Assembly (NCBI RefSeq): GCF_013409595.1
Contig: NZ_JACCBD010000001.1
Location: 1,178,001-1,242,000, forward strand
Length of the DNA stretch: 64,000 nt
Source: Leucobacter aridicollis
GTDB taxonomy: Bacteria > Actinomycetota > Actinomycetes > Actinomycetales > Microbacteriaceae
Direction of reading: 5' to 3'
The position numbers and the translations under genes are program-made. Under the pieces are notes generated by a model. The model had not been told where the DNA came from. It was given only the letters and a program-made list of their open reading frames with translations, and made no database searches. Shown piece by piece: positions 212 to 17,339 of the stretch (its first letter is position 1; each line of letters begins with the position of its first letter).

Positions 212-1114
212 ATGAGCACGAAACTTATCGATGAAGATACCCTCACCGCCCAGATCGCCAAGGTCGCCGAAGACGCTGGGGTGTTCGCGTTCGCGCACGC
301 CCGCGACATCGACACGGGCGTCGAAGTCGGCTTCCGCTCTGACGACCCCACCGTGACGGCCTCGGTCTTCAAGGTTCCCGTGCTCGTCGAGTACGTGCGC
401 CAGGTGGCCGCGGGAGAGCTCGACCCCGCGCAGCGCATCGAGGTATCGCCGTCGGAGGCAACGATGGGCCCCACGGGCCTGAGCGTGTTCTCGGACGTCG
501 CCGACTGGTCGCTGCGCGACATCGCGACCTCGATGATCACGGTGAGTGACAACGCGGCGACCGACATCGTCACAGGGCTCGTCACTGTGGATCGCGTCAA
601 CTCGACGATGCGTGAGCTCGGGCTGCCCGGCACGCAGCTGACCGGTGATTGCTCGGTCATTTTCGACGACATCGCGAAGGATCTCGCGGCGGCCGGCATC
701 GGCACCATCGACGGCATGGCGAGCGTGGACTACGACACCGCCGCGACCTTCACCGCCGCGACGCCCGAAAAGACCAACCGCACGACGCCGCGCGAGGCGA
801 CGTCGCTCCTGCAGCAGATCTGGACGGACGCCGCGGCGACGCCCGAGGCTTGCGCCGAGGCGCGCCGCATCCTCGGCATGCAGGTGTGGCCGCATCGCCT
901 GAGCGCCGGCTTCCCGCGCGACGACGTGAAGATCAGCGGCAAGACCGGCACGATCGGCATGGTGCGCAACGAGATCGGGGTCGTCGAGTTCCCGGATGGC
1001 AAGCGCCACGCGATCGCCGTCTTCCTGCGCGGCAAGACGCTGCAGTCGCGCAACCCGGCGGCAGACCGCGCGATCGGGGACATCGCGCGCCTGCTCTCCG
1101 ACGCGCTCGGCTAG
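212..1114 (+). CDS. Class A beta-lactamase-fold serine hydrolase, cytoplasmic
   Basis: The 300-residue protein has the serine penicillin-recognising triad: S51-x-x-K54 (SVFK), S112-D113-N114 and K244-T245-G246. These define the class A beta-lactamase/PenP fold. The omega-loop glutamate is uncertain: E186 stands three residues before N189, whereas Glu166 and Asn170 are four apart in class A enzymes. There is no signal peptide, so the enzyme should stay in the cytoplasm, where it could not protect the wall from beta-lactams. I favour a hydrolase for a peptide, amide or D-amino-acid derivative, matching the D-peptide genes that follow. The start at 212 is chosen over 155 because a -10 hexamer sits just before it and the upstream 19 residues are not family-like. 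Confidence 0.8.
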   Translation: MSTKLIDEDTLTAQIAKVAEDAGVFAFAHARDIDTGVEVGFRSDDPTVTASVFKVPVLVEYVRQVAAGELDPAQRIEVSPSEATMGPTGLSVFSDVADWSLRDIATSMITVSDNAATDIVTGLVTVDRVNSTMRELGLPGTQLTGDCSVIFDDIAKDLAAAGIGTIDGMASVDYDTAATFTAATPEKTNRTTPREATSLLQQIWTDAAATPEACAEARRILGMQVWPHRLSAGFPRDDVKISGKTGTIGMVRNEIGVVEFPDGKRHAIAVFLRGKTLQSRNPAADRAIGDIARLLSDALG

Positions 1115-1143
1115 CCCGAGCTCCCAGCAGCCTGGCGAGCACA

Positions 1144-1181
1144 CAATAGCCCGGGCCCCGTTCACGGGGCCCGGGCTATTG
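1144..1181. terminator. Bidirectional terminator
   Basis: A 17-base perfect inverted repeat (1144-1160 with 1165-1181) and a TTCA loop lie between two convergent genes. The stem carries AATAG/CTATT ends, so a short U-run is available on either strand. Confidence 0.8.
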
Positions 1182-1193
1182 CGCGTGTGCTGG

Positions 1194-2036
1194 TTAGCGG
1201 TTGATGAGCGGCAGCATGCCGCGCAGCGACGCGGCGGCGAACTGGTAGCACGCGGTGATGAAGTTCACGGCCTCGCGCGGCGAGCGCGCGGTGAGCTTGA
1301 TTGTGCGGATCGCGGTGCGCTCGGCCGTCGGGATCATCTGCGCGAGCTCCGCGGAGGGGATGTTTGGCATGTCGATCTCCGCCTCGATGATCTCCGGCAC
1401 CGGGGCGAGCGCCAGCTCACCGGCGCCCTCCACGGCGCGCTTCGCCGCGTCGTGGATGAGACGGCGCGACTCGGTGGGGGAGACGGAGTCGGCCGCGTTG
1501 TAGCCGTGCGCCTCCTTCACCGTCACCGTGTGGATGCCGGGCAGCGAGGTCGCGATGTCGGCGCAGATCACGTCGTCGCCGGTGAGGAGCGCGACGGGCA
1601 CGCCGACCGCGGCCGCCTGCAGCGCGTTCACGTCCGCCTCGGAGACCGGAGTGCCGTTGACGCGCACCTCGTTGAAGAGCGACGAGTAGGTGTGCGCGAT
1701 GACGCCCGGCCCGCCTGCGGCCGCGTGGTAGCCGATGAAGAGTGCGACGTCGTGGTCCTTGTCGATGCCCTCGGCCATGCAGTCGACCTTGGGGCTGCCG
1801 AATACGACGCGGGCGCGCTGGTCGAGATCCTCGTGAATGAGGTTGTCCATCGTGCCGTGGCTGTCGTTGATGGTCACCTCGGTCGCGCCACCGGCAAAGG
1901 CCCCCTCGATGGCAGCGTTCGCCTCGCCGGTCATCAGCTGCTGCGCGCGCGGGTAGCCGTGGCCGCCTCGGACAACCTGGTCCATCGTGGCGATGCCTGC
2001 GACACCCTCCATATCGATCGAAATGTATACGCGCAT
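1194..2036 (-). CDS. dppA: D-aminopeptidase, M55 family (DppA)
   Basis: This 280-residue zinc enzyme releases D-amino acids from D-Ala-D-Ala and similar peptides in family M55. All five metal ligands known from Bacillus subtilis DppA fall at identical numbers here: D8 and E10 (SIDMEG), H60 (NDSHG), H104 (IGYH) and E133. H115, the catalytic histidine of the family, is also present (VIAHTYSS). The start at 2036 (MRVYIS) is preceded by GGAAAGG; a longer frame to 2207 is upstream read-through. The gene is divergent from a dipeptide ABC operon, the same partnership as in the Bacillus dpp operon. It is probably a cytoplasmic decamer, by family analogy, acting on imported D-peptides. Confidence 0.95.
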   Translation of the reverse strand: MRVYISIDMEGVAGIATMDQVVRGGHGYPRAQQLMTGEANAAIEGAFAGGATEVTINDSHGTMDNLIHEDLDQRARVVFGSPKVDCMAEGIDKDHDVALFIGYHAAAGGPGVIAHTYSSLFNEVRVNGTPVSEADVNALQAAAVGVPVALLTGDDVICADIATSLPGIHTVTVKEAHGYNAADSVSPTESRRLIHDAAKRAVEGAGELALAPVPEIIEAEIDMPNIPSAELAQMIPTAERTAIRTIKLTARSPREAVNFITACYQFAAASLRGMLPLINR

Positions 2037-2248: not shown

Positions 2249-3271
2249 ATGCCAGCAATTTCTGCGAGTCCATTACCGGACACTGATACACCACAACCGC
2301 AGAAGCGAGAATCGTTCCTGGCTCGCAAGCCCTGGGCCGCGTACCTTCTGCGTCGCGGCGGCTACTTCGTCGTATCGATGTTCGTGTTGATCACGGTCAC
2401 GTTCCTGCTCATGCAGCTCATTCCTGGCGACCCCGCGCGCGTGTCCGCGGGCGAGAATGCCTCGCCGGAGGCTATCGAGGCGCGCCGGATCGAGCTCGGC
2501 CTCGACCGGCCCGTGATCGTCCAGTACTTCTCGTTCTGGAAGGGGCTCTTCACCGGCGACCTGGGCGAGTCGATCAGCTCGCGCATGCCGGTGATCGACG
2601 TCATCATGCAGCGCGCACCCGCGACGCTGGAGATCGCGTGGTCCGCGGTCGCGATCGCGCTGTTCGTCGCGATCTGCCTCGGTCTGACGTTCGGCGCCCT
2701 CACCCACGGCGAGCGCCGCCCGGGCGTCGACGCCGGCTTCAACTCGGTCACCGCCGTGCTCGCGCTCATCCCCGAGTTCCTCGCAGGCGTGTTGCTCGTC
2801 TACTTCTTCGCGGTGACGCTCGACCTGTTGCCGGTCGCGGGCAGAGGGGACTTTACCTCGTACATCCTGCCGGTCACGGCGCTGGCGTTCGGGCCAGCCG
2901 CGGGGCTCACCCGCATCGTGCGGGCCGAGACGCTCACGGTGTTGCAGCAGGACTACGTTCGCACCGCCCGCGCTCGGCGGATGTCGCCCGTGCGGCTGTA
3001 CCGCAAGCACGTGCTTCCCAACCTGCTCACGTCGACGCTGACGATCTCGGGTATGGCGCTCGGCGGCATGATCGCGGGCACCGTGATCGTTGAGGGCATC
3101 TTCGCGTGGCCGGGCCTCGGCGGTGTCATCGTGCAGTCGATCCAGGGCAAGGATTACCCGCTGGTGCAGGCGATCATCATCTTCTACGGGGCAGTGGTGC
3201 TGCTCATCAACCTCGTTATCGACGTCCTGCTGATCCTGCTGGATCCCCGTACCGCATTGGATAAATCATGA
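2249..3271 (+). CDS. dppB: Dipeptide/oligopeptide ABC transporter permease (DppB type)
   Basis: A 340-residue inner-membrane permease. After a 35-residue polar N-tail come a first membrane helix (about 37-58), the LIPGDPA segment typical of DppB/OppB, and five further helices with the EAA loop near RAETLTVLQQDYVRTARARR. It forms half of the membrane channel with the permease part of the next gene. The start at 2249 follows GAGGAGAG; an in-frame extension to 2132 lacks family similarity. Its stop overlaps the next start by four bases, so translation is coupled. The 212-base gap to dppA must hold divergent promoters, but I could not identify them. Confidence 0.92.
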   Translation: MPAISASPLPDTDTPQPQKRESFLARKPWAAYLLRRGGYFVVSMFVLITVTFLLMQLIPGDPARVSAGENASPEAIEARRIELGLDRPVIVQYFSFWKGLFTGDLGESISSRMPVIDVIMQRAPATLEIAWSAVAIALFVAICLGLTFGALTHGERRPGVDAGFNSVTAVLALIPEFLAGVLLVYFFAVTLDLLPVAGRGDFTSYILPVTALAFGPAAGLTRIVRAETLTVLQQDYVRTARARRMSPVRLYRKHVLPNLLTSTLTISGMALGGMIAGTVIVEGIFAWPGLGGVIVQSIQGKDYPLVQAIIIFYGAVVLLINLVIDVLLILLDPRTALDKS

Positions 3272-5139
3272 CCATGTCACAGCGCTTCCTCGCAACGTTG
3301 CGAACGCCGCTCGGGGTCGCCTCGATGGCGACGCTCGCCGCCCTCCTGTTCTTCGCGATTTTCGCTCCCATCATCTGGGGTGAGCAGGCCGCCCTCACCA
3401 ACGCGAGTCAGATCTCGCAGCCGCCGAGCGCCGAGCACGTGTTCGGCACCGACGGTTCCGGCAGGGATATCCTGCTGCGCACCCTCGTAGCGACGCGCCT
3501 CTCGATCGTGATGTCGCTCACGGCGACAGTCATCGGGATCGTGTGCGGCGTGGTGCTCGGGCTGATGCCGCTCGTGCTGGGCGGCCGCGCGGGCCGGTGG
3601 CTCGTCGCGGGCATCAACATCGGTGTCGCGTTCCCCGGCCTGCTGCTCGCGATCGCCTTCTCGGTGATCTTCGGGCAGAGCGCGATGGCCGCGAGCCTCG
3701 CGATCGCGATTGCGATGATGCCGAACTACGGTCGCCTCGTGCACAACCTCGCAGCCTCGGTCTGGGGCCGGGACTACGTATCGGCGGCGCTCGTGCTCGG
3801 CGTGCCCAAGCGCCAGATCGTGTTCCGGCACGTGCTGCCGAACATCCGCGATCCGCTGCTCGTGAACGCGACGCTCACCGCGGGCGGCACGCTGCTCGCG
3901 TTCGCCGGGCTGTCGTTCCTCGGCCTCGGCGTGCAGGTGCCGCAGTACGACTGGGGACGCATGCTCAACGAGGGCATCAGCCGGATCTTCGTCACCCCGA
4001 CGGCGGCGCTCGTTCCGGGCATGGCGATCATCCTCGCCGGCATGACGTTCGTGTTGCTCGGCGAGGTGTTGAACCGCACCCTCCGCACGGGCGCGCAGCG
4101 GAGCCTGTCGGCGGGCCTGCTGAAGAAGCTCAAGCTGTCTCGCGCTGAGAACGCCGCCGAGGTGAAGCGCCGCGGCGAGACCGTCTCCACCGGCGAATCG
4201 AGCGACACCGTGTTGTCGGTGCGCGGCCTGAAGGTGTTCGCGCCGCAGGGCGGCACGCAGCTCCGGCCGCTCGTCGATGGGGTCTCCTTCGACGTCGGGC
4301 GCGGCGAGATCGTCGGCGTTGTCGGCGAATCGGGGTCGGGCAAGAGCCTCACCCTCATGTCGATCGCTGGCCTGCTCGAGGCGCCGCTGCACGTCACGTC
4401 GCGCTCGGCGAGCTTCGACGGTGAAGACCTGGTGCTCAGCGAGGAGGGGCATCCGAGGTCCCTCGACCATCACTTTGGCACGAAGCTCGCGATGGTCTTC
4501 CAGGATCCGATGTCGTCGCTGAACCCGGCGCTCCACGTCGGCACGCAGGTCGCCGAGAGCGGGCTGCTGCACCTCGACATGAACAAGGCGGAAGCGAAGG
4601 ACGCCGCGATCGACAGGCTCAACGCCGTGAAGATCCCTGACGCCGAGCGCCGCTACTCGCAGTACCCTCACGAGTACTCGGGCGGCATGCGGCAGCGCGC
4701 GATGATCGCCGCCGGACTCATGGGCAAGCCGTCGCTGATCCTCGCCGACGAGCCGACCACCGCGCTCGACGTGACAGTGCAGGCAGGCATCCTCAAGCTG
4801 CTCAAGCAGATCAACGAGGAGGATGGCACGGCGATCATGTTCGTCTCGCACGACATCGCCGTGGTGACGTCGCTGTGCACGCGCGTGCTCGTGATGTATC
4901 GGGGGCGGATCGTCGAAGACATCAGTTCCGAGGAGCTGCGCGCCGGCAACGCCGCGCACCCGTACACGCAGGCCCTCATGGCGACGGTCCCCACGATGGA
5001 CAGCCCGCGCGGCGAGGCGATGGCATCGATTCCTGACGACGCTGATTTCTCGGGCACCTCGCCCATCGGCGTCATCGAAGCGGTCATGCCGCCCACCGGC
5101 GCGGTGCGCCTCATCGACTTTGAAGGAGCCGTGAAGTGA
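3268..5139 (+). CDS. Fused dipeptide ABC permease (DppC) and ATPase (DppD)
   Basis: A 623-residue fusion of two subunits that are usually separate. Residues 1-285 form a DppC-type permease with the FGTDGSGRDIL signature and an EAA loop (GRDYVSAALVLGVPKRQIVFRHVLPN). A charged linker of about 25 residues follows. Residues 310-600 are an ABC ATPase with Walker A GESGSGKS (about 353-360), Q-loop FQDPMSSLNP, signature YSGGMRQR (about 470) and Walker B LILADEPTTALD (about 490). The C-terminus lacks the usual iron-sulphur cysteines of DppD. The fusion fixes permease and ATPase one to one and is known in some actinobacterial transporters. Both ends overlap neighbouring genes by four bases. Confidence 0.92.
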   Translation: MTMSQRFLATLRTPLGVASMATLAALLFFAIFAPIIWGEQAALTNASQISQPPSAEHVFGTDGSGRDILLRTLVATRLSIVMSLTATVIGIVCGVVLGLMPLVLGGRAGRWLVAGINIGVAFPGLLLAIAFSVIFGQSAMAASLAIAIAMMPNYGRLVHNLAASVWGRDYVSAALVLGVPKRQIVFRHVLPNIRDPLLVNATLTAGGTLLAFAGLSFLGLGVQVPQYDWGRMLNEGISRIFVTPTAALVPGMAIILAGMTFVLLGEVLNRTLRTGAQRSLSAGLLKKLKLSRAENAAEVKRRGETVSTGESSDTVLSVRGLKVFAPQGGTQLRPLVDGVSFDVGRGEIVGVVGESGSGKSLTLMSIAGLLEAPLHVTSRSASFDGEDLVLSEEGHPRSLDHHFGTKLAMVFQDPMSSLNPALHVGTQVAESGLLHLDMNKAEAKDAAIDRLNAVKIPDAERRYSQYPHEYSGGMRQRAMIAAGLMGKPSLILADEPTTALDVTVQAGILKLLKQINEEDGTAIMFVSHDIAVVTSLCTRVLVMYRGRIVEDISSEELRAGNAAHPYTQALMATVPTMDSPRGEAMASIPDDADFSGTSPIGVIEAVMPPTGAVRLIDFEGAVK

Positions 5140-5915
5140 GCAACCAACTCGAATTCGACGCAGTGAGCATCACCTACGGCCACGGTGCGTCCGCCTTCAA
5201 AGCCGTGAACGACGTCAGCCTCGAACTGCGAGCGGGCGAGGTGCTCGGGCTCGTGGGGGAGTCCGGCTCGGGCAAGTCGACGCTCGCTCGCGCCGCCGTC
5301 GGGCTCGCGGAGCCCTCCGACGGCCGCGTGGTGCTTGAGGGCAACGAGATCTCCCACGCGCGCGGTCGCGTGCTGCGGGAGCGGCGGCGGGTGCAGATGA
5401 TCTTTCAGGATCCGCAGTCCTGCTTCAACCCCCGCCGCACGATTGGGCAGTCGCTCGACGAGGCGCTCGTCGCGGCGCATAAGCGCGACGGCTCGGCGAT
5501 CCCGGCGGTTCGAGCGCGCAGGGACGAGATCGCGAACCTGCTGCGCGCGGTCGCGTTGCCCTCCGACACCGCGCAGCGGATGCCCGCGCAGCTGTCCGGC
5601 GGGCAGCGCCAGCGCGTCGCGGTGGCGCGGGCGATCGCGGCGAAGCCGGCCGTGATCCTCGCCGACGAGATCACCTCGGCGCTCGACGTGTCCGTGCAGG
5701 GCTCCGTGCTGAACCTGTTGAAGCAGCTGCAGCGAGACCTCGGCTTCTCGATGCTGTTCATCAGCCACAACCTCGCGGTCGTGCGCCTGGTCTGTGACCG
5801 CGTCGCGGTCATGCGCCAGGGCAGGCTCGTCGAGGTCGGCGAGACCCTCGATGTCATGCACGATCCGCAACACGACTACACCCGCGAGCTCATCGCCGCG
5901 GTTCCCACACTGTAA
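5136..5915 (+). CDS. Dipeptide ABC transporter ATPase (DppF type)
   Basis: A 259-residue ABC ATPase, the second nucleotide-binding subunit of the importer. Walker A GESGSGKST lies near 41-49, the Q-loop reads IFQDPQSCFNPRRTIGQS, the signature LSGGQRQR is near 153 and Walker B VILADEITSALD near 172. Ile replaces the usual Pro after the catalytic Glu, a variant found in other transporters of this family. It starts at a GTG inside the stop codon of the fused gene (GTGA overlap), so the two ATPases are made together. Confidence 0.9.
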   Translation: MSNQLEFDAVSITYGHGASAFKAVNDVSLELRAGEVLGLVGESGSGKSTLARAAVGLAEPSDGRVVLEGNEISHARGRVLRERRRVQMIFQDPQSCFNPRRTIGQSLDEALVAAHKRDGSAIPAVRARRDEIANLLRAVALPSDTAQRMPAQLSGGQRQRVAVARAIAAKPAVILADEITSALDVSVQGSVLNLLKQLQRDLGFSMLFISHNLAVVRLVCDRVAVMRQGRLVEVGETLDVMHDPQHDYTRELIAAVPTL

Positions 5916-5951
5916 CGACTGTTCACTCCTGATCCACCCAACCAGTTCGGG

Positions 5952-6023
5952 GCGGCAAGTCGGGCGAGCGCAACTGCAGAGCACACCGACGTGCTGTGCG
6001 CGCCCGCTCGGTGCGCTTGCCGC
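5952..6023 (+). promoter_or_regulatory. Nested stem-loop before the first binding-protein gene
   Basis: An outer 8-base stem (5952-5959 with 6016-6023), a middle 6-base stem (5965-5970 with 6005-6010) and an inner 5-base stem (5981-5985 with 5995-5999) can form one long hairpin. It sits between the ATPase gene and the Shine-Dalgarno GAAGGAAG of the binding-protein gene. I infer an RNA-processing or stabilising structure that lets the binding protein be made in excess over the membrane parts; it has no U-tract. Confidence 0.5.
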
Positions 6024-6049
6024 TCGAGCTTCAACCGAAGGAAGACACT

Positions 6050-7642
6050 ATGAAGGCGTACACACTTGTTGGTCTTGCGGCCGTGGGGGCGCTTGCGCTC
6101 TCGGCCTGCACCGGCGGCGGCGGAGGCGGCGCGAGCGGCGAGAGCGGTGGCGAGCCGGTCATCGACGGGACGCTGAGCTACGCGATCACCCGCGATCCTG
6201 GCATGTTGTTCAGCCCGCTCAACCCGAGCGGGGCGCTCGGCTCCGTCACTCAGTGGGCGTACGAGTCGCTCATCTACTTTGACGCGGACGGCCAGCCGCA
6301 GGGCTGGCTGGCGAAGTCGTGGGAGCAGACCCCGACGTCCCTGCACTTCGAGGTGCGCGACGATGCGGTGTGCGCGGACGGCACGAAGCTCACCGCCGAG
6401 ACGATCGCGAACAACTTCCGGTGGATCGCGGATCCCGCGAACAACTCGACCGCGATCAACCTCGTCGTGCCGTCGACCGCGAAGATCGAGAACGACGACT
6501 CGAGCATCACGATCACGACCGTTGAGCCAGATCCGTTCATGATCACGGCTATCGGGTCGCAGGCGATCTATTGCCAGGCCGCGCTCGACGACCCGCAGTC
6601 GGTGTCGACGGCGAGCAACGGCACGGGCATGTTCAACGTGACCGATGTTGTCACCGGCGACCACCTGACGCTTGAGCGCCGCGACGACTACGCGTGGGCG
6701 CCCGAGGGCGGCGCCGACAGTTCGACCCCCGGCGTGCCGAAGACCGTCGAGCTGAAGATCATCGAGAACGAGAGCACCCGCGCGAACCTGCTGCTGTCGG
6801 GCGAGCTGAACGTCGCGACGATCACCGGCCCCGACGCCGACAGGCTCGAGGGCAAGGTCGACGTGCTGAACTCGGGGATGCTTATCACCGGCGGCTTCCT
6901 CTACAGCCAGGCTGAGGGGCGCCCGACCGCTGACAAGAACGTCCGCATCGCGCTCACGAAGGCGCTGGATCTCGACGAGCTCATGCAGGTGAGCACCGCA
7001 GGCAAGGGCGAGCGGGCCCAGCGTCTCGCGACCGTCGATCCGCAGGTCTGTCAGTACGACGCTGTCGGACCCAACCTGCCCAAGACCGATGTCGCCGGCG
7101 CCGAGAAGCTGCTCGACGAGGCGGGCTGGGTGAAGGGCGCCGACGGCAAGCGCTCGAAGGACGGGCAGCCGCTCGTGCTCGAGTTCGCGTGGCAGTCGAA
7201 GGGTGCGGAGATCGCGTCGGCGGCTGAGATGATGGCTGACCAGTGGGGCGCGATCGGCGTCGGCGTGAACCACGACGGTTCCGACTACGGTGCGTTCATC
7301 GAGAAGATCAGCACCCCGGGCGCCGCGTCGAAGATCGACGTCATGTGGCTCACCGCGAACTACCCGGTGCCGAGCGCGCTGATGGTCTACTACACGGGTG
7401 AGGCACCGCCGAAGGGGAACAACTTCGCCGCGCTCAACAACCCGAAGTTCGACGCGCTCGTCGAGAAGGCGAACAACAGCACGGGCGCAGAGGGCTGCAA
7501 GGCCTGGGAGGCCGCCGAGGGCGAGATGTACGCGTCTGCGGACTACGTGCCGTTCGCGATGACGTCGCACCCGACGTTCGCGCAGGGCATCAGCGAGTAC
7601 GGCATCAAGGAATTCGCGCCGAGCACGATCCTCGTCAAGTAA
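6050..7642 (+). CDS. Peptide ABC transporter substrate-binding lipoprotein, copy 1
   Basis: A 530-residue extracytoplasmic solute-binding protein of family 5 (SBP_bac_5), which captures peptides for the importer encoded just upstream. The signal peptide ends in the lipobox LSAC with the acylated Cys at residue 20, followed by a Gly-rich linker. The family signature with a tryptophan-containing segment (WAYESLIYFD, ... GWLAKSWEQT) is clear. A strong Shine-Dalgarno, GAAGGAAG, precedes the ATG at 6050. It is a near twin of the next gene: same length, same cysteines and about three quarters or more identical by eye. Confidence 0.92.
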   Translation: MKAYTLVGLAAVGALALSACTGGGGGGASGESGGEPVIDGTLSYAITRDPGMLFSPLNPSGALGSVTQWAYESLIYFDADGQPQGWLAKSWEQTPTSLHFEVRDDAVCADGTKLTAETIANNFRWIADPANNSTAINLVVPSTAKIENDDSSITITTVEPDPFMITAIGSQAIYCQAALDDPQSVSTASNGTGMFNVTDVVTGDHLTLERRDDYAWAPEGGADSSTPGVPKTVELKIIENESTRANLLLSGELNVATITGPDADRLEGKVDVLNSGMLITGGFLYSQAEGRPTADKNVRIALTKALDLDELMQVSTAGKGERAQRLATVDPQVCQYDAVGPNLPKTDVAGAEKLLDEAGWVKGADGKRSKDGQPLVLEFAWQSKGAEIASAAEMMADQWGAIGVGVNHDGSDYGAFIEKISTPGAASKIDVMWLTANYPVPSALMVYYTGEAPPKGNNFAALNNPKFDALVEKANNSTGAEGCKAWEAAEGEMYASADYVPFAMTSHPTFAQGISEYGIKEFAPSTILVK

Positions 7643-7653
7643 CCCACGCGGGT

Positions 7654-7686: not shown

Positions 7687-7804
7687 ATCTCCGCGTACCC
7701 CCGGTGCGCCGCAGCGAACCGCGAAAGCGGATCGTTTCGGTGCAGCAGGCCAACGAACTGTCCTGGCGAACAGCACCGGCGTTCAAATTTGTATCGCACA
7801 CCGA

Positions 7805-9565: not shown

Positions 9566-10990
9566 ATGACGAACCCTCTGAACACCCTTGCTTTCGACAC
9601 CGCGCGGTGGGAGCAGTTTCTCGGTGAGACCGCGAGACGGCACCACGTACCCGGCATCGTCGCCGGCGTGCTGCGCATCGACGAGGCGACGGGCCGTGAG
9701 CAGCGCTTCGTCGCGAGCACCGGGCTCGCGAACAATCGCACCGGCGTCGAGACGACCCGCGACACGCTCTGCCAGATCGGCTCAGTCACGAAGATCATCA
9801 CCGCGACGATGATCATGCAGTTGCGCGAGGAAGGCAAGCTCGAGCTCGAGACGCTCGCCTCCGAGCTGCTCCCGGACACCCCGCTGTCGACGACGGACGA
9901 CGGCTCGAAGATCACGATCAGGCACCTGCTGTCCCACACGTCGGGCATCAACGGCGACGTCTTTACCGACACCGGCCGGGGCGACGACTGCATCGAAAAG
10001 TACGTTGCACTGTTGAAGGACGCCGAGCCGCTCTTCAGCCCAGGCAACGGCTGGTCGTACTGCAACTCCGGCTGGGTCGTGCTCGGCCGGATCATCGAGC
10101 TGCTCGATGGCCGCACCTGGGACGCTTCGGTCCAGGCGCGCATCAGCCAGCGCCTCGACCTGCACCAGTTCTTGACGATGCCCGAGCAGATCATGAGCCA
10201 CCGCTACCAGCACGGCCATACCCGCGACACGGGATCGAAGGATTGGGTGCCCGCGCCGACGACCGCGCTACCGCGCTCGGTCGGACCCGCAGGCATCATC
10301 AACAGCAGCGTCGACGACCTGCTCGACTTTGGCCGCTCCTTCCTCCGCGGCGGGCTCGGCGTGGCCGGCACGAACGTGCTCAGCCCGGAGTCGGTCGAAC
10401 TGATGGCGCAGGTCCAGGCGGATCTCGGCGACGCCGACGCGCTGTCGCCGCAGTGGGGCCTCGGCTGGATCCTCGACGAGTGGGAGGGCCACCGCCTGTT
10501 CTGGCACGGCGGCACCACGGTCGGAAACAAGGCCTGGTTCCAGGTGCTTCCGGACGACGGCGTCGTCATCGTTGTGTTCTGCAACGGCGGCATCGCAAAC
10601 CGTGCGGGCGGCGAGATCGTCGAGGCGTTCGCGCGCGAGTTCGTTGGCGCATCCACCGGCGCCGGGGTGAGCCCGTCGGGCCCCGCGAGCGAGACCGTCG
10701 TGAAGGACGAGTGGCTTGGCACGTACGGCGACTTCATCACCTCCGTCGAGGTCTTCAAGGCCGAGGACGGCCAGGTGAAGGCGAAGCTCACGCAGGGGCT
10801 CGACCCGAGCTCGGTCACCTCGACGCTCTTCGACATCCTGCCGACCGCGAAGCCGAACCGGTTCGTGTCCCGCCCGGATTCGCTGTCGACCTGGTCGCAA
10901 CTCACATTCACCACGGTTGACGGGCATCCCTGCCTGTACGCCGACATTCGTTGCCTGCGCAAGCGCGACGAAGCCGAAGCAGCCGCCTAA
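9566..10990 (+). CDS. S12-family serine hydrolase (beta-lactamase class C fold)
   Basis: A 474-residue enzyme with S73-V-T-K76, Y165-C-N167 and H314-G-G316, the three motifs of the S12 family that includes D-aminopeptidase DAP, D-Ala-D-Ala carboxypeptidase and EstB esterases. The HGG in place of KTG is typical of D-aminopeptidase and esterase members. Residues after about 370 form an extra C-terminal domain, as in larger S12 peptidases. There is no signal peptide, so it acts inside the cell on imported substrate. It follows the binding proteins and its stop overlaps the next start (TAATG). I infer D-peptide hydrolysis; the exact bond is not readable from sequence. Confidence 0.85.
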   Translation: MTNPLNTLAFDTARWEQFLGETARRHHVPGIVAGVLRIDEATGREQRFVASTGLANNRTGVETTRDTLCQIGSVTKIITATMIMQLREEGKLELETLASELLPDTPLSTTDDGSKITIRHLLSHTSGINGDVFTDTGRGDDCIEKYVALLKDAEPLFSPGNGWSYCNSGWVVLGRIIELLDGRTWDASVQARISQRLDLHQFLTMPEQIMSHRYQHGHTRDTGSKDWVPAPTTALPRSVGPAGIINSSVDDLLDFGRSFLRGGLGVAGTNVLSPESVELMAQVQADLGDADALSPQWGLGWILDEWEGHRLFWHGGTTVGNKAWFQVLPDDGVVIVVFCNGGIANRAGGEIVEAFAREFVGASTGAGVSPSGPASETVVKDEWLGTYGDFITSVEVFKAEDGQVKAKLTQGLDPSSVTSTLFDILPTAKPNRFVSRPDSLSTWSQLTFTTVDGHPCLYADIRCLRKRDEAEAAA

Positions 10991-12465
10991 TGCGACGCGT
11001 GCTCTTGCGCGGCGGCCGGGTGGTGGACCCTGGCGGCGGGACCGACCGCGTCGCCGACGTGCTCATCGAGGACGGCCGGATCGCCGCGGTCGGGCTGGAG
11101 CTGCGGGTCGACGACGCGCAGGAGATCGACGTCGCCGGCATGATCGTCGGGCCGGGCTTCGTCGACCTGCACAGCCACGTGAACTCGATCGCGGGCCAGC
11201 GGTTGCAGGCCCGCGACGGCGTCACCACCGCGCTCGAGCTGGAGGCAGGGCTGCTGCCCGTCGAGCTCGCCTACACGAAGGCGATGCAGGAGGGGCGGCC
11301 GATCAACTTCGGCTTCTCGGCATCGTGGGGCATGGCCCGCGCCGAGGTGCTCTCTGGCCGGTCGGCCAACGCCGACTTCGCCGAGGGCCTCTCGATCCTC
11401 GGTGACCCTGCCTGGCAGGCTGACTCGACTCCCGCGCAGCTCACCGCGTGGCTCGGTCGGCTCGAGAGCGAGATCGGCGATGGCGCGCTGGGCATCGGGA
11501 TCCTGCAGGGGTACGCGCCGCGGACGGACCCAGCGGAGTACCTCGCCGTCAACGAACTCGCGGCGCGCGCAGGCGTGCCGACGTTCACTCACGTGCGCGA
11601 GATCACCGAGGCCGATCCGACGACGCCGATGGACGGCACGGAGGAGGCCGCGCGCGCCGCGATGGAGTTCGGGGGACAGGTGCACCACTGCCACGTGAAT
11701 AGCACGTCGCGCAGGCACATCGATCGCACGCTCGGCGTGATCGAGCGGGCCCGCGCGGGCGGCGCCGCCATGACCGTCGAAACATACCCCTACGGGGCCG
11801 GCAGCACCGGCATCGGGGCGGCGTTCCTCGCGCCGGAGCGCCTCGGCGTCTGGGGGATTGCGCCGTCGAACATCGTGATTGTCGCGACGGGCGAGCGCAT
11901 CCGCGACGCCGAGCATCTCCGGCACATGCGCAAGACCGATCCGGGCGCGGCGTGCATCGTCGAGTTCATCGACGATGCGGATCCGACGGACCGCGCCCTG
12001 CTCGAGCGCGCGCTCGCGTTCCCGGACGGGATCGTGGCGTCGGACGCGATGCAGGTGAACTGGCCAGACGGGAGCGTCGACACGCGGGAGTGGCCGCTGC
12101 CGGCTGGCGGGACCACCCATCCGCGGACCGCGGGAACGTTTGCGCGCTCGATCCGCATGATGGTGCGCGAGCAGCGGGCCTGGAGCTGGCTCGAGGCGTT
12201 CCGCCGCTGCAGCTTTCTGCCGGCCCGCGTCATGGACCAGACGACCCCGGCGTTCGCGCGGAAGGGCCACCTCGGGCTCGGCGCCGACGCCGACATTGTG
12301 GTGATCGATCCCGACCGCATCACAGACCAGGCGACGTACTTCGACAGCACCCGGCCATCGATCGGGATCGAGCACGTGCTCGTTGCCGGCGAGTTCGTGG
12401 TCCGTGACGAGGACATCGTGACCGACGCCTACCCGGGCCGCGGACTCCGCGGCCAACTCAGGTGA
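10990..12465 (+). CDS. Amidohydrolase-superfamily N-acyl-D-amino-acid deacylase-like protein
   Basis: A 491-residue metal-dependent hydrolase of the D-aminoacylase/dihydroorotase branch. The first metal ligands are H61 and H63 (DLHSH). Later histidines lie in FTHVRE (H201) and VHHCHVN (about 230-235), and an aspartate in ASDAMQ (about 350). The segment TVETYPYGAGSTG resembles N-acyl-D-amino-acid deacylases. It would free D-amino acids from N-acyl or peptide-like derivatives. The start at 10990 is fixed by the TAATG overlap with the hydrolase gene; a longer frame to 10951 lies inside that gene. Activity on a cyclic substrate cannot be excluded. Confidence 0.82.
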   Translation: MRRVLLRGGRVVDPGGGTDRVADVLIEDGRIAAVGLELRVDDAQEIDVAGMIVGPGFVDLHSHVNSIAGQRLQARDGVTTALELEAGLLPVELAYTKAMQEGRPINFGFSASWGMARAEVLSGRSANADFAEGLSILGDPAWQADSTPAQLTAWLGRLESEIGDGALGIGILQGYAPRTDPAEYLAVNELAARAGVPTFTHVREITEADPTTPMDGTEEAARAAMEFGGQVHHCHVNSTSRRHIDRTLGVIERARAGGAAMTVETYPYGAGSTGIGAAFLAPERLGVWGIAPSNIVIVATGERIRDAEHLRHMRKTDPGAACIVEFIDDADPTDRALLERALAFPDGIVASDAMQVNWPDGSVDTREWPLPAGGTTHPRTAGTFARSIRMMVREQRAWSWLEAFRRCSFLPARVMDQTTPAFARKGHLGLGADADIVVIDPDRITDQATYFDSTRPSIGIEHVLVAGEFVVRDEDIVTDAYPGRGLRGQLR

Positions 12466-12529
12466 CACACCCCTCATCCTTGCCCCTGAGCGGCCACAAG
12501 TCGCTCGGAAGACAGAAAGGTCCATCGAC

Positions 12530-13651
12530 ATGACACCGCACACGGTGCGCCTCGATGACATCGTCGAGACGATTCACACCCTCGTCGAATGCGAGTCCCC
12601 ATCAGACGACCACGACGCGGTCGCGGCCTCGGCCGCGCTCGTTGCCGAGCTTGGCGAGGAGCTACTTGGGGCCGCCCCCGAGCGCATCGTCATCGACGGG
12701 GTGAGTCACCTCAAGTGGAGCTTCGGTGACGCGACGCGCGTGCTGCTCGTCGCCCATCACGACACTGTGTGGCCGCTCGGCACGCTCGCCCGGCTGCCTT
12801 TCACGAACGCGGACGGCGTGCTCACCGGTCCCGGCTGCTTCGACATGAAGACGGGCCTCGCGATGGCGATGCACGCGGTCGCCGCGCTCGCGGAGCGTGA
12901 CGGCGTGACGCTGCTCGTCACCGGCGACGAGGAGCTCGGCTCCCCAAGCTCGCGCGCCCTCATCGAGGAGACCGCGAGCGGCGCGAGCGCGGCGCTCGTG
13001 CTCGAGGCGTCCGCCGACGGCGGCGCGCTGAAGATCGAACGCAAGGGCGTGTCGCTCTACGAGCTCGTGGTCTACGGCGTCGCCGCGCACGCCGGGCTTG
13101 AGCCCGAGAAGGGCGTCAACGCCTCGCTCGAGCTCGCCCACCAGCTTCTCGCGGTCGCCGGGCTCGGCGACACGGAGCTCGGCACCACGGTCACCCCGAC
13201 GGTCGCGACCTCGGGGACGACGAGCAACACGGTGCCCGCGCGCGCCTCGTTCAAGGTCGACGTGCGCGCCCGCACATTCGCCGAGCAGGATCGGGTACAC
13301 GCCGCCATGCTCGCGCTCCGCCCGGTGCTCGACGGCGCCCAGCTCGAGGTCATTGGGGGGCCAAACCGGCCGCCATTCGAGGCGGCGTCCGCCGCGGCGC
13401 TCTTCGACCGGGCGCAGGCCGCCGCCGCCAGGCTCGGCCTGGAACCGCTCGAGGGCGTCGCCGTCGGCGGCGCGAGCGACGGTAACTTCACCGCTGGGAT
13501 CGGCGTGCCGACGCTCGACGGCCTCGGGGCCGTCGGCGGCGGGGCGCACGCCGAAAGCGAGCACGTGCTCGTCGCGGCGATCGAACCGCGAACCCTGCTG
13601 CTCACCGAACTCATGACGAGCCTGCTCGACGAACCGAAAGCTGGTGCATGA
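12530..13651 (+). CDS. M20-family amidohydrolase, candidate N-succinyl-L-amino-acid hydrolase
   Basis: A 373-residue M20 zinc hydrolase of the carboxypeptidase G2/ArgE group. H76-H77-D78 (AHHDTVW) carries the first metal ligand and catalytic Asp, D105 (CFDMKTG) the bridging ligand, and the TGDEELGS segment near 130 the catalytic base. The dimerisation domain (VYGVAAHAG...EKGVNA) is present. In the D-to-L pathway described from Geobacillus kaustophilus, an enzyme annotated in this way removes succinate from N-succinyl-L-amino acids. The gene follows GAAAGG and overlaps the next gene by four bases. Alternatively it is a simple dipeptidase or glutamate carboxypeptidase. Confidence 0.85.
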   Translation: MTPHTVRLDDIVETIHTLVECESPSDDHDAVAASAALVAELGEELLGAAPERIVIDGVSHLKWSFGDATRVLLVAHHDTVWPLGTLARLPFTNADGVLTGPGCFDMKTGLAMAMHAVAALAERDGVTLLVTGDEELGSPSSRALIEETASGASAALVLEASADGGALKIERKGVSLYELVVYGVAAHAGLEPEKGVNASLELAHQLLAVAGLGDTELGTTVTPTVATSGTTSNTVPARASFKVDVRARTFAEQDRVHAAMLALRPVLDGAQLEVIGGPNRPPFEAASAAALFDRAQAAAARLGLEPLEGVAVGGASDGNFTAGIGVPTLDGLGAVGGGAHAESEHVLVAAIEPRTLLLTELMTSLLDEPKAGA

Positions 13652-14463
13652 TGACCGGTGAACGCATCACTGAAGCGATGAAACATCAGGCGCACCTTGA
13701 CGCCGAGCGCGCGGCCGCACTCACCGGCGTGACCGTTCGCGAGATGAGCGGGACCGACGAAGAGGCGCAGGTCATTGACCTCCTCGCCCTCATCTGGGGG
13801 CGCACGGCCGACAACCCCGTCGTGCCAAAGGAGATCATGCGCGTGCTCGGGAAGACCGGGAACTACATCGCGGGCGCGTTTCTCGACGGCGAGCTCGTGG
13901 GCGCCGCCCTCGGGCTGCACTCGAGCCCGGAGCGCTCGACGCTGCACAGCCACATCACGGGCGTGGTTCCCGGCCTTGTCGGAAAGGCCGTCGGCTACGG
14001 CATCAAGCTGCACCAGCGGGCGTGGGCGCTCGACCGCGGCATCGAGGCGATCGAGTGGACGTACGACCCGCTCGTGTCGCGCAACGCGAGCTTCAACTTC
14101 AACAAGCTCGGCGCGGTGCCCGTCGAATACCTCGAGAACTTCTATGGGCTCATGGCCGACACGATCAATGCGGGCGATCTCAGCGACAGGCTGCTCGTGC
14201 GCTGGCACCTGCTCGACGAGAACGTCTCGCGGCTGGCGGGCGGCGACCGCTCCGGGAGCGACGTCGCCGAGGGATTCGCGGTCGCGATTCCCGACGACAT
14301 CGAGCGGCTCCGCGTCACCGATCCTGAACGCGCGCGCGAGTGGCGCGGCACGATCCGCGAGCAGCTCACCTCCCACCTGAACAACGGCGCCCGCATCGTC
14401 GGATTCCAGCGCGGCACCGGCTACATCTTGCAACACGCATCAACTGAAGGAGAACAAGACTGA
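13648..14463 (+). CDS. GNAT acyltransferase, candidate D-amino-acid N-succinyltransferase
   Basis: A 271-residue protein of the COG3375 GNAT group, a family that repeatedly sits beside MenC/NSAR genes. The core acyltransferase region covers about 25-175 (EAQVIDLLALIWG, NYIAGAFLDGELVGAALGLH, VGYGIKLHQRAWALDRGIEAIEWTYDPL, NFNKLGAVPVEYLENFYG). The last 90 residues are a family-specific tail. In Geobacillus kaustophilus the matching enzyme transfers succinyl from succinyl-CoA to D-amino acids, committing them to conversion. Two consecutive ATG codons (13648 and 13651) leave the start open by one residue; its stop overlaps the next start by one base. Confidence 0.78.
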   Translation: MMTGERITEAMKHQAHLDAERAAALTGVTVREMSGTDEEAQVIDLLALIWGRTADNPVVPKEIMRVLGKTGNYIAGAFLDGELVGAALGLHSSPERSTLHSHITGVVPGLVGKAVGYGIKLHQRAWALDRGIEAIEWTYDPLVSRNASFNFNKLGAVPVEYLENFYGLMADTINAGDLSDRLLVRWHLLDENVSRLAGGDRSGSDVAEGFAVAIPDDIERLRVTDPERAREWRGTIREQLTSHLNNGARIVGFQRGTGYILQHASTEGEQD

Positions 14464-15563
14464 TGAAGATCGAGGGCTTTGAGCTGCGCCGAGTCGGGCT
14501 GCCGCTGGTTTCGCCGTTCCGCACGTCGTTCAGCACGCAGACCGCGCGCGACATTCTGCTGGTGAAGGCTGTCACCGACCAGGCCGAAGGCTGGGGAGAG
14601 TGCGTCACGCTCGGCGACCCGCTGTACTCACCCGAATACACCGACGGCGCGGCCGACATCATGAAGCGCTACTTCATCCAGGCCATCGCGGACGTCACCG
14701 ATGCGACGGGCGTGGGCCAGGCGCTGCACAAGTTCAAGGGCCACCCGATGGCGAAGGCGGCGCTCGAGACCGCCGTGCTCGACGCCGAGCTGCGCGCGGA
14801 GGGCCGCTCGTTCGGGCGAGAGCTCGGCTCGGTCCGCGACGTCGTGCCGTGCGGCGTCTCGGTCGGCATCATGGACTCGATTCCCGAGCTGCTCGACGCG
14901 GTCGGCGGGTACATCGACGAGGGCTACGTCCGCATCAAGCTGAAGATCGAGCCCGGCTGGGACATCGAGGCCGTCCGTGCGGTCCGCGAGCGATTCGGCG
15001 ACGACGTGCAACTGCAGGTCGACGCGAACACCGCCTACACGCTGCGCGATGCGCGCCATCTCGCGAAGCTCGACGACTTCGACCTCCTGCTCATCGAGCA
15101 GCCGCTCGAGGAGGAAGACATCGTCGGCCACGCCGATCTCGCAAAGATGCTGAAGACCCCGATCTGCCTCGACGAGTCGGTGACGTCGGCCCAGACGGCG
15201 GCCGCGGCGATCCGGCTCGGCGCGACGAGCGTGATCAACATCAAGCCCGGCCGTGTCGGCGGCTACCTCGAGGCGCGCCGCATTCACGACCTCGCGGTCG
15301 CGGCCGGCGTTCCCGTCTGGTGTGGCGGCATGCTCGAATCGGGCATCGGCCGCGCGGCGAACATCGCGCTCGCCTCGCTTCCGGGCTTCACGCTCCCCGG
15401 CGACGTGTCCTCGAGTAGCCGGTTCTACAAGACCGATATCACCGAGCCCTGGGTGATGGAGGACGGTCACCTGACGGTTCCGACGGGCCCCGGCCTCGGC
15501 GTCGCCCCGATCCCCGAGCTGCTTGAGGAGTTCACCACAAGCGTCGAGTGGATCGCGGTCTAG
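14463..15563 (+). CDS. MenC-like enolase, candidate N-succinylamino-acid racemase
   Basis: A 366-residue enolase-superfamily member with the full OSBS/NSAR active site: K159 and K161 (KLK), metal ligands D187, E212 and D237, and K261 (IKPGR). These lysines take and give the alpha proton in racemisation. The same fold makes o-succinylbenzoate for menaquinone, but no other men gene lies in the window. The partners here are a GNAT acyltransferase and an M20 hydrolase, the pairing known for N-succinylamino-acid racemase. I therefore prefer racemisation of N-succinyl-D- to L-amino acids. It is translationally coupled to the GNAT gene (TGATG). Confidence 0.85.
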   Translation: MKIEGFELRRVGLPLVSPFRTSFSTQTARDILLVKAVTDQAEGWGECVTLGDPLYSPEYTDGAADIMKRYFIQAIADVTDATGVGQALHKFKGHPMAKAALETAVLDAELRAEGRSFGRELGSVRDVVPCGVSVGIMDSIPELLDAVGGYIDEGYVRIKLKIEPGWDIEAVRAVRERFGDDVQLQVDANTAYTLRDARHLAKLDDFDLLLIEQPLEEEDIVGHADLAKMLKTPICLDESVTSAQTAAAAIRLGATSVINIKPGRVGGYLEARRIHDLAVAAGVPVWCGGMLESGIGRAANIALASLPGFTLPGDVSSSSRFYKTDITEPWVMEDGHLTVPTGPGLGVAPIPELLEEFTTSVEWIAV

Positions 15564-15604
15564 CGGTGCGGGCCTTGCTGACGTCGGCGCACGGGGGCTA
15601 GCGA

Positions 15605-15610
15605 TATGCT
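15605..15610 (+). promoter_or_regulatory. -10 element, leaderless promoter of the PucR-type gene
   Basis: TATGCT lies 7 bases before ATG 15618. The hexamer contains the alternative ATG at 15606, which argues that 15618 is the real start. Confidence 0.5.
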
Positions 15611-15617
15611 TCCCTTC

Positions 15618-17339
15618 ATGAGCGACCGGCACGAACCACGATTCACCAGGTTCAGTCTCGGACGCGTCCTGGACGACCTCGGGCTCACGCTGCTCGAGGT
15701 CGTCCACGGGCGCATTGACGATCAGCAGGACATCGGCGGAGTCGTCATTTACGACCCCGTCGACGAGCCGCTCTATCCGGCGCACGCCGTCGTGCTCGGC
15801 GTCGGGGTGCACGGCAGTGACGGGCTCAGCGACCTGCTCGCCGGGCTCGCCGGCCACACGATCGCGGCGGTCGTGGTGCGCTCGCCAGTCGAGATCACCG
15901 ACGAGGTACGCGCCCTGGCCGACGAACACGGCGTCGTCGTGCTCGGCCTCGCGCGCGGCGCGACGTGGACGCAGCTGGCGGCGCTGCTCCGGTCACTCCT
16001 CGCGGAGGACGACGTGGGGGACACCCACGTCGACTCGCTCGGCGGCATCCCGTCTGGCGACCTATTCGCCGTTGCGAACGCGATCTCCTCGCTGCTCGAC
16101 GCGCCCGTGACGATTGAGGATCGCTCCTCCCGCGTGCTCGCGTTCTCGGGCAGGCAGGAAGAGGCCGACCCGGCGCGCGCCGAAACGATCATCGGCAGGC
16201 GGGTGCCCGAGCGATACCGGCACCAGCTCACGCAGCAGGGCGTCTTCCGCGAGCTCTACCGCAGCGAGGACCCGGTGGTCATCGCGCGCATCGAGGCCGA
16301 GGCTGACATGTCGACGCAGCGCGTGGCGATCGGCGTGCGCGCTGGCGACGAGGTGCTCGGCTCGATCTGGGCGGCCATGGACGGACCGCTCACCGACGAG
16401 CGCAGGATCACGCTCCGCGACGCGGCCAAGCTCGTCGCGCTCCACCTGCTCCGCGTTCGCGCGGGCGCGGACGTGCAGCGCAGGCTCCGCGCCGAGCTGC
16501 TGAGCACCGCGCTCGAGGGCGGCTCCGGCGCGAGCGAGGCGCTCTCGCGGCTTAACCTGTCGGGCCAGCCGGTGTGCGTCGTTGCCGCGGTGCTCACCGA
16601 AACGGAGCACGGGGGAGCGGGCGGCGCGGATCAGGCGCTCATGGCCGAGCGCGAACGCTTCGCAGACGCGCTTGCCGTGCACCTCTCCGCGATGCGGCCG
16701 GGATCCGCCGTCGCGCTGCTCGGCGACACGGCGTACGGGATCCTCCCCGAGCCGAACGACCCGACGGGCGACCACGCGGTGCGCACGATGGAGGACTTTC
16801 TCGACCGCGTTGGCAGCCGCATGTCCGCCGTGATCGCGGTGGGGCCGCCAGCCGACGACATCGGGGGGATCTCGCGGTCGCGCGCCTCCGCGCGCCGGGT
16901 GCTCCGCGCGCTCCTCGAGCCGGCCGCCGGTCAGGCTGTCGCGCCGCAGGAACAGGCCGCTGCGGGCACGGCGGCTGCCGCAGGCGGGCGGCCACGCGCT
17001 GGCGGGTCGAGGTCGCGCGTGGCGCGACTCAGCGACGTTCACGCGTCGGTGCTGATGCTCGAGCTCCGCGACCTGATGGTCGTGCGCGGCGACGAGTTCA
17101 CGGGCCCGGTGTCGAGGCTCATGGAGCACGACGCGAAGCAGAAGGGGCATCTCGTCGACACGCTGCGCGCCTGGTTCGATCACTTCGGTGACGTCGCGAA
17201 GGCGGCCGACATGCTCTTCGTGCACCCGAACACGTTCAGGTACCGCCTGCGTCGGGCCGTCGAGATCAGCGGCATCGACCTCGACAACGCCGACGACAGG
17301 TTCGAGGCGATGCTCCAGCTGCGCCTGCTGGAACGCTAG
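15618..17339 (+). CDS. PucR-family transcriptional regulator
   Basis: A 573-residue regulator. The first 110 residues resemble the PucR N-terminal ligand domain (purine-catabolism-regulator-like), the middle is a GAF-like region with a variable, Ala/Gly-rich insert near 440-460, and the last 65 residues form the PucR-type helix-turn-helix (GDVAKAADMLFVHPNTFRYRLRR). It follows the D-peptide gene set with 54 bases between and has its own promoter, so it is the likely controller of that cluster. The activating ligand is unknown. I chose 15618 because a -10 hexamer overlaps the upstream ATG. Confidence 0.85.
   Translation: MSDRHEPRFTRFSLGRVLDDLGLTLLEVVHGRIDDQQDIGGVVIYDPVDEPLYPAHAVVLGVGVHGSDGLSDLLAGLAGHTIAAVVVRSPVEITDEVRALADEHGVVVLGLARGATWTQLAALLRSLLAEDDVGDTHVDSLGGIPSGDLFAVANAISSLLDAPVTIEDRSSRVLAFSGRQEEADPARAETIIGRRVPERYRHQLTQQGVFRELYRSEDPVVIARIEAEADMSTQRVAIGVRAGDEVLGSIWAAMDGPLTDERRITLRDAAKLVALHLLRVRAGADVQRRLRAELLSTALEGGSGASEALSRLNLSGQPVCVVAAVLTETEHGGAGGADQALMAERERFADALAVHLSAMRPGSAVALLGDTAYGILPEPNDPTGDHAVRTMEDFLDRVGSRMSAVIAVGPPADDIGGISRSRASARRVLRALLEPAAGQAVAPQEQAAAGTAAAAGGRPRAGGSRSRVARLSDVHASVLMLELRDLMVVRGDEFTGPVSRLMEHDAKQKGHLVDTLRAWFDHFGDVAKAADMLFVHPNTFRYRLRRAVEISGIDLDNADDRFEAMLQLRLLER

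Follow-up and report, generated by a model that had tools for sequence, protein, structure and literature searches.

Organization of the locus

The locus analyzed here lies in the genome of Leucobacter aridicollis (3.57 Mb, a single contig), in a stretch of 64,000 nucleotides (nt), hereafter the window, that corresponds to positions 1178001-1242000 of that genome. It consists of genes at 212-17339 of the window for a peptide importer, several hydrolases, a GNAT acyltransferase, a racemase of the N-succinylamino acid racemase/o-succinylbenzoate synthase (NSAR/OSBS) family and a PucR-type regulator, and it is considered here as a putative system for the salvage of D-amino-acid-containing peptides. 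All of the genes named in the original prediction, which had been made from the DNA sequence alone, were recovered at 212-17339 in family and model searches of the window proteins, and DppA with its five zinc ligands, the two lipoproteins, the gene overlaps and PucR were all found in the places that had been assigned to them. The features are the following (strand in brackets):

212-1114 (+), class A-like serine hydrolase, BlaB-like, PF13354
1145-1180, perfect inverted repeat without a T-run where the BlaB-like gene and dppA converge, candidate terminator for both directions
1194-2036 (-), DppA-like M55 D-aminopeptidase, PF04951, 305.3 bits
2037-2254, divergent intergenic region between dppA and the importer, probable control region for both
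2255-3271 (+), importer permease B (PermB); listed open reading frame from 2132, conserved part from about 2255
3268-5139 (+), fused permease C and ATPase D of a Dpp/Opp-type importer, from family matches
5136-5915 (+), second importer ATPase (ATPase2), DppF-like, from family matches
6050-7642 (+), solute-binding lipoprotein 1, SBP_bac_5, lipobox LSAC
7867-9459 (+), solute-binding lipoprotein 2, SBP_bac_5, lipobox LAGC
9566-10990 (+), S12 serine hydrolase, SVTK at 73, YCN at 165, HGG at 314
10990-12465 (+), amidohydrolase of the N-acyl-D-amino-acid deacylase kind, NF006560
12530-13651 (+), M20 peptidase of the carboxypeptidase G2 kind, candidate N-succinyl-L-amino acid desuccinylase
13648-14463 (+), divergent GNAT, candidate succinyl-CoA:D-amino acid N-succinyltransferase
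14463-15563 (+), NSAR/OSBS-family racemase (MenC-like), TIGR01928, with catalytic residues
15606-17339 (+), PucR-family regulator, alternative start at 15618
17370-17409, perfect inverted repeat without a T-run downstream of the PucR gene, candidate terminator and 3' boundary of the cluster

Overlaps of 4 nt join PermB to the fused permease-ATPase, the latter to ATPase2, and M20 to GNAT, and overlaps of 1 nt join S12 to the amidohydrolase and GNAT to the racemase. The dppA gene stands back to back with the importer, and the BlaB-like gene converges on dppA across a strong hairpin. Since dppA is on the minus strand and this hairpin lies between dppA and the BlaB-like gene, a single transcript would span at most 2255-17339 (+). 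The folds of 1143-1185 (hairpin 1145-1180) and 17368-17416 (hairpin after PucR) were calculated at -38.8 and -46.0 kcal/mol, respectively. We can only infer that these hairpins are borders of the cluster, since they carry no T-runs and a consensus terminator scan does not list 1145-1180 and 17370-17409. Consensus promoters and terminators were no more frequent in the window than in shuffles, and a search for a shared operator in the divergent region, aligned for seven Leucobacter, gave conserved blocks and no convincing palindrome.

The M20, GNAT and racemase proteins

The M20 protein was closest to carboxypeptidase G2, and the residues that we take to be metal ligands, as in that enzyme, were aligned. 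The GNAT protein was 94% identical to a Leucobacter aridicollis protein and had no Pfam or NCBIfam match of its own; PF13480 was carried by 12 of the 120 listed GNAT homologues, and no solved relative was found by sequence. A structure model with a predicted local distance difference test score (pLDDT) of 89.1 was matched by Foldseek to N-acetyltransferases over about 160-210 alignment columns of 271 residues, and the protein encoded at 13648-14463 is thus predicted to have a GNAT fold.

The racemase scored 308.4 bits with TIGR01928 (cut-off 200.65) and was identical in 262 of 365 positions to the N-acylamino acid racemase (NAAAR) of Amycolatopsis sp. T-1-60 (1sja), with which it has the catalytic residues in common. 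It keeps K159-x-K161, D187, E212, D237, K261 and R264, the arginine of KPGR; the roles of these residues are assumed from the Amycolatopsis enzyme, in whose numbering the arginine after the second lysine is presumably R266. L-Ala-D/L-Glu epimerase models reached 55.1 and 82 bits, below their cut-offs of 343 and 500. Two other, equal-scoring enolase-superfamily genes were detected about 17 kb apart, at G000:C1:3288257-3288898 (L001) and 3305711-3306352 (L002); they are nearly identical over the stretch compared, which looks like a recent duplication.

Menaquinone genes of the genome

The enolase C-terminal family had seven matches in the genome, one of them a MenC protein of 345 amino acids. 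The gene for this separate actinobacterial MenC (NF002782, 443.9 bits, cut-off 288) adjoins menB (NF006186, 540 bits, cut-off 378) and a menE-like ligase gene, the latter under its own cut-off (273.8 bits, cut-off 345), and menD was found elsewhere in the genome (297.6 bits, cut-off 244.2). Since a dedicated menC stands beside menB elsewhere, the MenC-like gene of the window is a second, NSAR-type enzyme. Its assignment as the menaquinone menC was discarded, and the objection raised in the original prediction, that it might be the only OSBS of a menaquinone-making genome, fails. A separate menC over the cut-off was also present in all eight same-family genomes with GNAT-NSAR that were searched; in G204 and G396, the match was interrupted by one stop codon. 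Outside the family, menB and no menC over the cut-off were found in G451 and G489, where NSAR may have a double use. The NCBIfam model TIGR01928 labels the racemase o-succinylbenzoate synthase despite the separate menC, and by this name automatic annotation hides NSARs of this type and the pathway.

Conservation of the cluster across actinobacteria

The named genomes were scanned with a GNAT alignment (A1), which gave 579 relatives; the best 80 of the 579 were taken as loci, and the 75 with at least 9.5 kb upstream were used (L048, L058, L072, L085 and L092 were dropped). On the strand of the cluster, NSAR was found in 71 of the 75 loci, PucR in 65, M20 in 64, the fused permease-ATPase in 62, S12, PermB and ATPase2 in 61 each, a binding protein in 57, S9 in 45 and M19 in 14. 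The search for the same gene order elsewhere, suggested in the original prediction, was successful: a complete importer lay on the same strand as GNAT in 59 of the 75 actinobacterial loci, from genera that include Leucobacter, Agromyces, Microbacterium, Nocardioides, Nonomuraea, Kribbella, Actinophytocola, Lentzea, Planotetraspora, Arthrobacter and Streptomyces. S12, S9 or M19 was present in 56 of these 59 loci, NSAR in 56, PucR in 55 and M20 in 52; the corresponding numbers for the 16 loci without a complete importer were 8, 15, 10 and 12. In the three importer loci that lacked S12, S9 and M19 alike (L050, L119 and L126), the importer was less similar and an amidohydrolase was present. A single match covered >80% of the fused permease-ATPase query in 55 of the 59 importer loci, and all of these 55 carried S12, S9 or M19. 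The Agromyces importer differs (30-53% identity) and comes with an SBP_bac_5 protein of its own and a different amidohydrolase.

Such importer parts are frequent in the L. aridicollis genome (37 matches of the permease-ATPase protein at E <= 1e-30), and an internal flank control was therefore needed. In the 69 loci with full flanks, counted on either strand, the upstream 10 kb were compared with the downstream stretch beyond 13.2 kb, which is only about 7.5 kb wide. The permease-ATPase was found in 57 upstream and 7 far downstream stretches, ATPase2 in 58 and 7, PermB in 56 and 4, S12 in 59 and 3, and M20 in 60 and 0. When the upstream stretch was narrowed to 7.5 kb, the numbers were 45 for the permease-ATPase, 58 for ATPase2, 17 for PermB, 58 for S12 and 60 for M20, the drop of PermB being due to its position far upstream. 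Since the block recurs in many genera and the rate in the far downstream flank is low, it is more than a chance association.

The hydrolases next to the importer vary. The S9 prolyl-oligopeptidase and S12 halves share one open frame in 44 of the 46 loci having both (all 80 loci considered), and in many loci this frame sits between the importer and M20 or GNAT; one example is L060:5425-8763, with 1112 amino acids and an S12 half that is beta-lactamase-like by Pfam. Other loci carry an M19 dipeptidase. DppA, the deacylase-like amidohydrolase and the BlaB-like gene were rejected as fixed parts, as they were present on either strand in 1, 7 and 1 of the 75 loci, respectively, with 10 kb flanks that cut off the upstream end of several loci. 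The peptidase set is chosen locally and is no fixed part of the system, S9, S12 or M19 enzymes occupying the position of DppA elsewhere.

Two broader samples gave a similar association of GNAT with NSAR. At the phylum level, GNAT was detected in 24 of 396 genomes at E <= 1e-40, and NSAR lay beside it in 16 of 17 new loci (flanks up to 1.5 kb). In the family sample, GNAT was matched in 54 of 398 genomes at E <= 1e-20, with NSAR within the 1.5 kb flanks in 23 of 29 loci.

Variation in Leucobacter and a second type of importer

A racemase match at E <= 1e-60 was obtained in 17 of 54 Leucobacter genomes, nine of which, L. aridicollis included, had a racemase at least 88% identical. The BlaB-like gene was present in 8 of the 54 genomes, all among these nine; in seven of the eight it was on the contig of the racemase, about 12-14 kb away, and in G842 the two were on different contigs. 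In the ninth genome, G843, the BlaB-like gene was missing, and the 15 kb read retained S12-amidohydrolase-M20-GNAT-NSAR without close relatives of DppA or of the importer; judging from this layout, the genes at the flanks seem to appear and disappear together with the importer. A third Leucobacter layout, M20-GNAT-NSAR-PucR, had no close importer relative upstream (L196-L198 and L200). Among six other Leucobacter clusters (L190-L195), one binding-protein copy was found in five and two in L191. The two lipoproteins of L. aridicollis are 75.8% identical to each other and are apparently a tandem copy.

In five Microbacteriaceae genomes of 1.3-1.4 Mb (G154, G092, G204, G010 and G396; loci L157-L161), GNAT-NSAR was found beside a polar-amino-acid-type importer, made up of an SBP_bac_3 binding protein, a permease and an ATPase, and likewise in the 3.5 Mb genome G344 (L165); the importer families were tested on G010 alone and assigned to the other five genomes by 52-87% identity. 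No relative of S12, S9 or M19 was detected at E <= 1e-8 in the stretches read from these six genomes, and a weak amidohydrolase match (27%) was seen in that of G396. Since the M20-GNAT-racemase triad is joined elsewhere to other importers, it would work as a module.

Two further observations concern the neighborhood. An aldehyde dehydrogenase gene at 17425-18780 (-), of the succinate-semialdehyde type although below the cut-off, faces the end of the operon, and the same gene adjoins the cluster in other Leucobacter (84-98% identity); a link to the release of succinate is only a thought. In addition, parts of a second peptide-type importer of the ATP-binding cassette (ABC) kind lie in the window at about 44479-46984 (-), with three matches.

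Importer and hydrolases of the L. aridicollis locus

The importer carries PF00528 and PF00005 modules with an SBP_bac_5 binding protein and is of the Dpp/Opp type. The DppA-like protein keeps D8, E10, H60, H104 and E133, all five zinc ligands, as well as H115, in comparison with 1hi9; their roles are presumably those in the Bacillus subtilis structure. It scored 196.1 bits with NF058634 (D-aminopeptidase DppA), under the cut-off of 430, and the protein encoded at 1194-2036 is provisionally filed as M55 DppA-like only. A DppA of Nonomuraea (G420:C23:338660-339493, L162) was 65% identical to it, the other query genes being unmatched in the 19 kb read there. Distant DppA relatives (36-38%) were found in L134, L135 and L136, adjoined by weak ABC ATPase or binding-protein matches; these are further pairings of DppA with an importer, located outside the GNAT-NSAR cluster.

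The BlaB-like protein encoded at 212-1114 has the motifs SVFK at 51, SDN at 112 and KTG at 244, and by eye it has no signal sequence, which points to a cytoplasmic enzyme. The E..LN motif of class A beta-lactamases is absent, and the score with the NCBIfam class A beta-lactamase model (86 bits) was below the cut-off of 200. Its nearest solved relative by sequence was BlaB (2wuq), presumably from Streptomyces cacaoi, from which it differs in that the Leucobacter gene adjoins dppA and an importer. A search of the literature for BlaB together with D-aminopeptidase returned nothing useful.

The S12 protein has all three motifs, SxxK, YxN and HxG (SVTK, YCN and HGG), and also appears to be cytoplasmic, with no signal sequence by eye; its later solved matches include a D-alanyl-D-alanine carboxypeptidase and an alkaline D-peptidase. 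The amidohydrolase was over the NF006560 cut-off (622.4 bits, cut-off 340) and weakly like N-acyl-D-glutamate deacylase and D-aminoacylase. It keeps HxH, two more histidines and an aspartate (HSH 61, THVR 200, CHVN 234 and ASDA 350), which we take to be metal ligands.

Comparison with known systems

The operon for D-to-L conversion that Sakai et al. 2006 reportedly described in Geobacillus kaustophilus comprises a GNAT succinyltransferase, an NSAR and an M20 desuccinylase. The likeness to the Leucobacter triad is one of family: a divergent GNAT, an enolase-superfamily NSAR and a carboxypeptidase G2-type M20 are encoded together in both. The difference is that the Leucobacter triad shares one strand with adjoining genes for a Dpp-type importer, lipoproteins, D-peptide-type hydrolases and PucR.

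In Bacillus subtilis, the dppABCDE-ykfABCD genes, for DppA, a dipeptide ABC importer, YkfB and further peptidases, serve the use of D-peptides and murein peptides. DppA, a Dpp-type ABC importer, an enolase-superfamily enzyme and peptidases are shared with Leucobacter. However, YkfB is an enolase-superfamily L-Ala-D/L-Glu epimerase whose substrate is a dipeptide, whereas the Leucobacter gene is of the NSAR type, with GNAT and M20, and scores below the cut-offs of the epimerase models; moreover, the Leucobacter dppA is divergent and not the first gene of the operon. The D-Ala-D-Ala system of Escherichia coli, ddpXABCDF, combines a D,D-dipeptide importer with a cytoplasmic dipeptidase, an arrangement similar to the one proposed for Leucobacter. 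It lacks a module for D-to-L conversion, and in Leucobacter the D,D-dipeptide permease model remained under its cut-off (150.5 bits, cut-off 434).

The proposed pathway and its alternatives

The locus is interpreted here, with a probability of about 0.7, as a salvage operon for D-amino-acid-containing peptides that uses the N-succinyl route of Geobacillus. Short peptides would enter the cell through the Dpp-type ABC importer with its binding lipoproteins. From their families and motifs, the cytoplasmic M55 DppA, the S12 enzyme and probably the BlaB-like enzyme would release D-amino acids from these, and the deacylase-like amidohydrolase would release them from N-acylated D-residues. As suggested by homology and the shared gene order, and following the known chemistry of the G. 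kaustophilus enzymes, GNAT would then move a succinyl group from succinyl-CoA onto the D-amino acid, NSAR would racemize the N-succinyl-D- to the N-succinyl-L-form, and M20 would strip the succinyl group from the L-form only, so that the conversion from D to L would be one-way. PucR is probably an activator of the operon that responds to an intermediate. We infer the D-peptide specificity of the importer and hydrolases, the D-specificity of GNAT and the control by PucR. That the three-enzyme route is joined to D-peptide uptake and hydrolases, as the original prediction proposed, is supported by the gene order over many actinobacterial genera.

Several results weigh against this interpretation. 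Among the models shown, no curated substrate-specific model was over its cut-off for the importer and the binding proteins; the best permease model was a nickel permease (281.3 bits, cut-off 350), and NikA-type models were among the best for the binding proteins. The S12 protein scored 37.7 bits with the NCBIfam D-aminopeptidase model (cut-off 443), and its best solved match was a protein called IS11 (163.7 bits). In the amidohydrolase, LELEAG replaces the NCG segment with the cysteine that is presumably a metal ligand in D-aminoacylase, and this enzyme could reverse the GNAT step if N-succinyl-D-amino acids were accepted. On the cluster strand, M20 was not found in 11 of the 75 loci and NSAR not in 4, and 6 of the 29 GNAT loci of the family sample had no NSAR within the 1.5 kb flanks. 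No relative of this M20 was detected at E <= 1e-10 in any of the eight family genomes with GNAT-NSAR and no adjoining M20, namely the six with the amino-acid-type importer plus G078 and G069, in which GNAT-NSAR itself was read; these eight genomes would need another desuccinylase. DppA was matched in 12 of the 23 genomes searched and adjoined the importer in only three (L. komagatae, Leucobacter UBA1945 and Agromyces italicus), while in seven of the other nine matching genomes (all but G403 and G410) the best DppA match, read with 1.5 kb flanks, had no PermB relative beside it. As regards this locus, the original description of the system as complete is justified; in other genomes the set of peptidases is not fixed. 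Finally, the locus counts describe the GNATs most like that of the window, as they come from the best 80 of 579, L089 and L114, both among the 75 loci, overlap on one contig, and all genome and locus counts ignore kinship.

An alternative is that the operon degrades imported ready-made N-acyl-amino acids (N-acetyl, N-succinyl or longer acyl) and that GNAT has another job. An amidohydrolase of the N-acyl-D-amino-acid deacylase kind would fit this, as would the use of NSARs on several N-acyl and N-carbamoyl substrates described in PMC7431475. We consider it unlikely, because in loci retrieved with GNAT the racemase is its most constant partner (71/75 on the same strand, 16/17 in the phylum sample), a relative of this amidohydrolase occurs in 7 of the 75 loci (either strand), and peptidases of the S12, S9 and M19 families are frequent in them. 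Slightly less likely still is that the main function of the cluster is to detoxify or remove peptides with D-amino acids, such as antibiotics or cell-wall signals, and not to feed the cell. The serine hydrolases are indeed related to penicillin-recognizing enzymes, and the solved protein nearest to the BlaB-like one bears the name beta-lactamase regulatory protein; however, ATP-driven import followed by conversion to L-amino acids would be wasteful for this purpose, and in the small genomes GNAT-NSAR is retained together with an importer of the amino-acid type. The last alternative, a MenC-like enzyme that is the OSBS of menaquinone synthesis among unrelated hydrolases, has the NCBIfam name (TIGR01928, over cut-off) and the OSBS activity kept by NSAR-family enzymes in its favor, and is very improbable in view of the dedicated menC beside menB and the menE-like gene, the menC over cut-off in all eight same-family GNAT-NSAR genomes and the NSAR genes in the 1.5 kb GNAT flanks of 23/29 and 16/17 sampled loci.

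Significance of the cluster

The salvage reading as first proposed was correct in what it observed and for the most part in how it interpreted this. The present analysis adds the separate menC, the arrangement of the strands with its likely borders, the actinobacterial conservation, the swapped peptidases and the alternative importer. Searches of the open-license literature returned no title or abstract start that described the combination, and earlier notes in subscription papers are possible. In passages of three papers (PMC8142540, PMC7431475 and PMC7700177), NSAR is treated as a biocatalyst or as a subject of enzyme mechanism.

Beyond this locus, there is about an even chance that actinobacteria share a modular salvage of D-amino acids. 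It would have a fixed core of GNAT-NSAR, usually with M20 and PucR, and an exchangeable intake. The latter would be either a fused-permease peptide importer with swappable peptidases (S9-S12 fusion, S12, M19, M55 or BlaB-like) or, where the genome is small and streamlined, an importer for polar amino acids that has no peptidases with it.

The walls of dead cells supply a large pool of D-amino acids as nutrients, and to our knowledge the uptake and use of these by actinobacteria are poorly mapped. The NSAR/OSBS family has long served as a study case of enzyme promiscuity, and the native role of the Amycolatopsis NAAAR has, as far as we know, long been unclear. The conserved neighborhood in other actinobacteria suggests a native role for NAAAR-type enzymes. 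A conserved cluster in which uptake and cleavage are combined with a one-way D-to-L conversion provides the NSAR/OSBS family with a testable physiological role and supplies gene markers for D-amino-acid use. If the modular reading is true, it would give the NSAR family a native role across the phylum, and small-genome Microbacteriaceae would be predicted to take up free D-amino acids.

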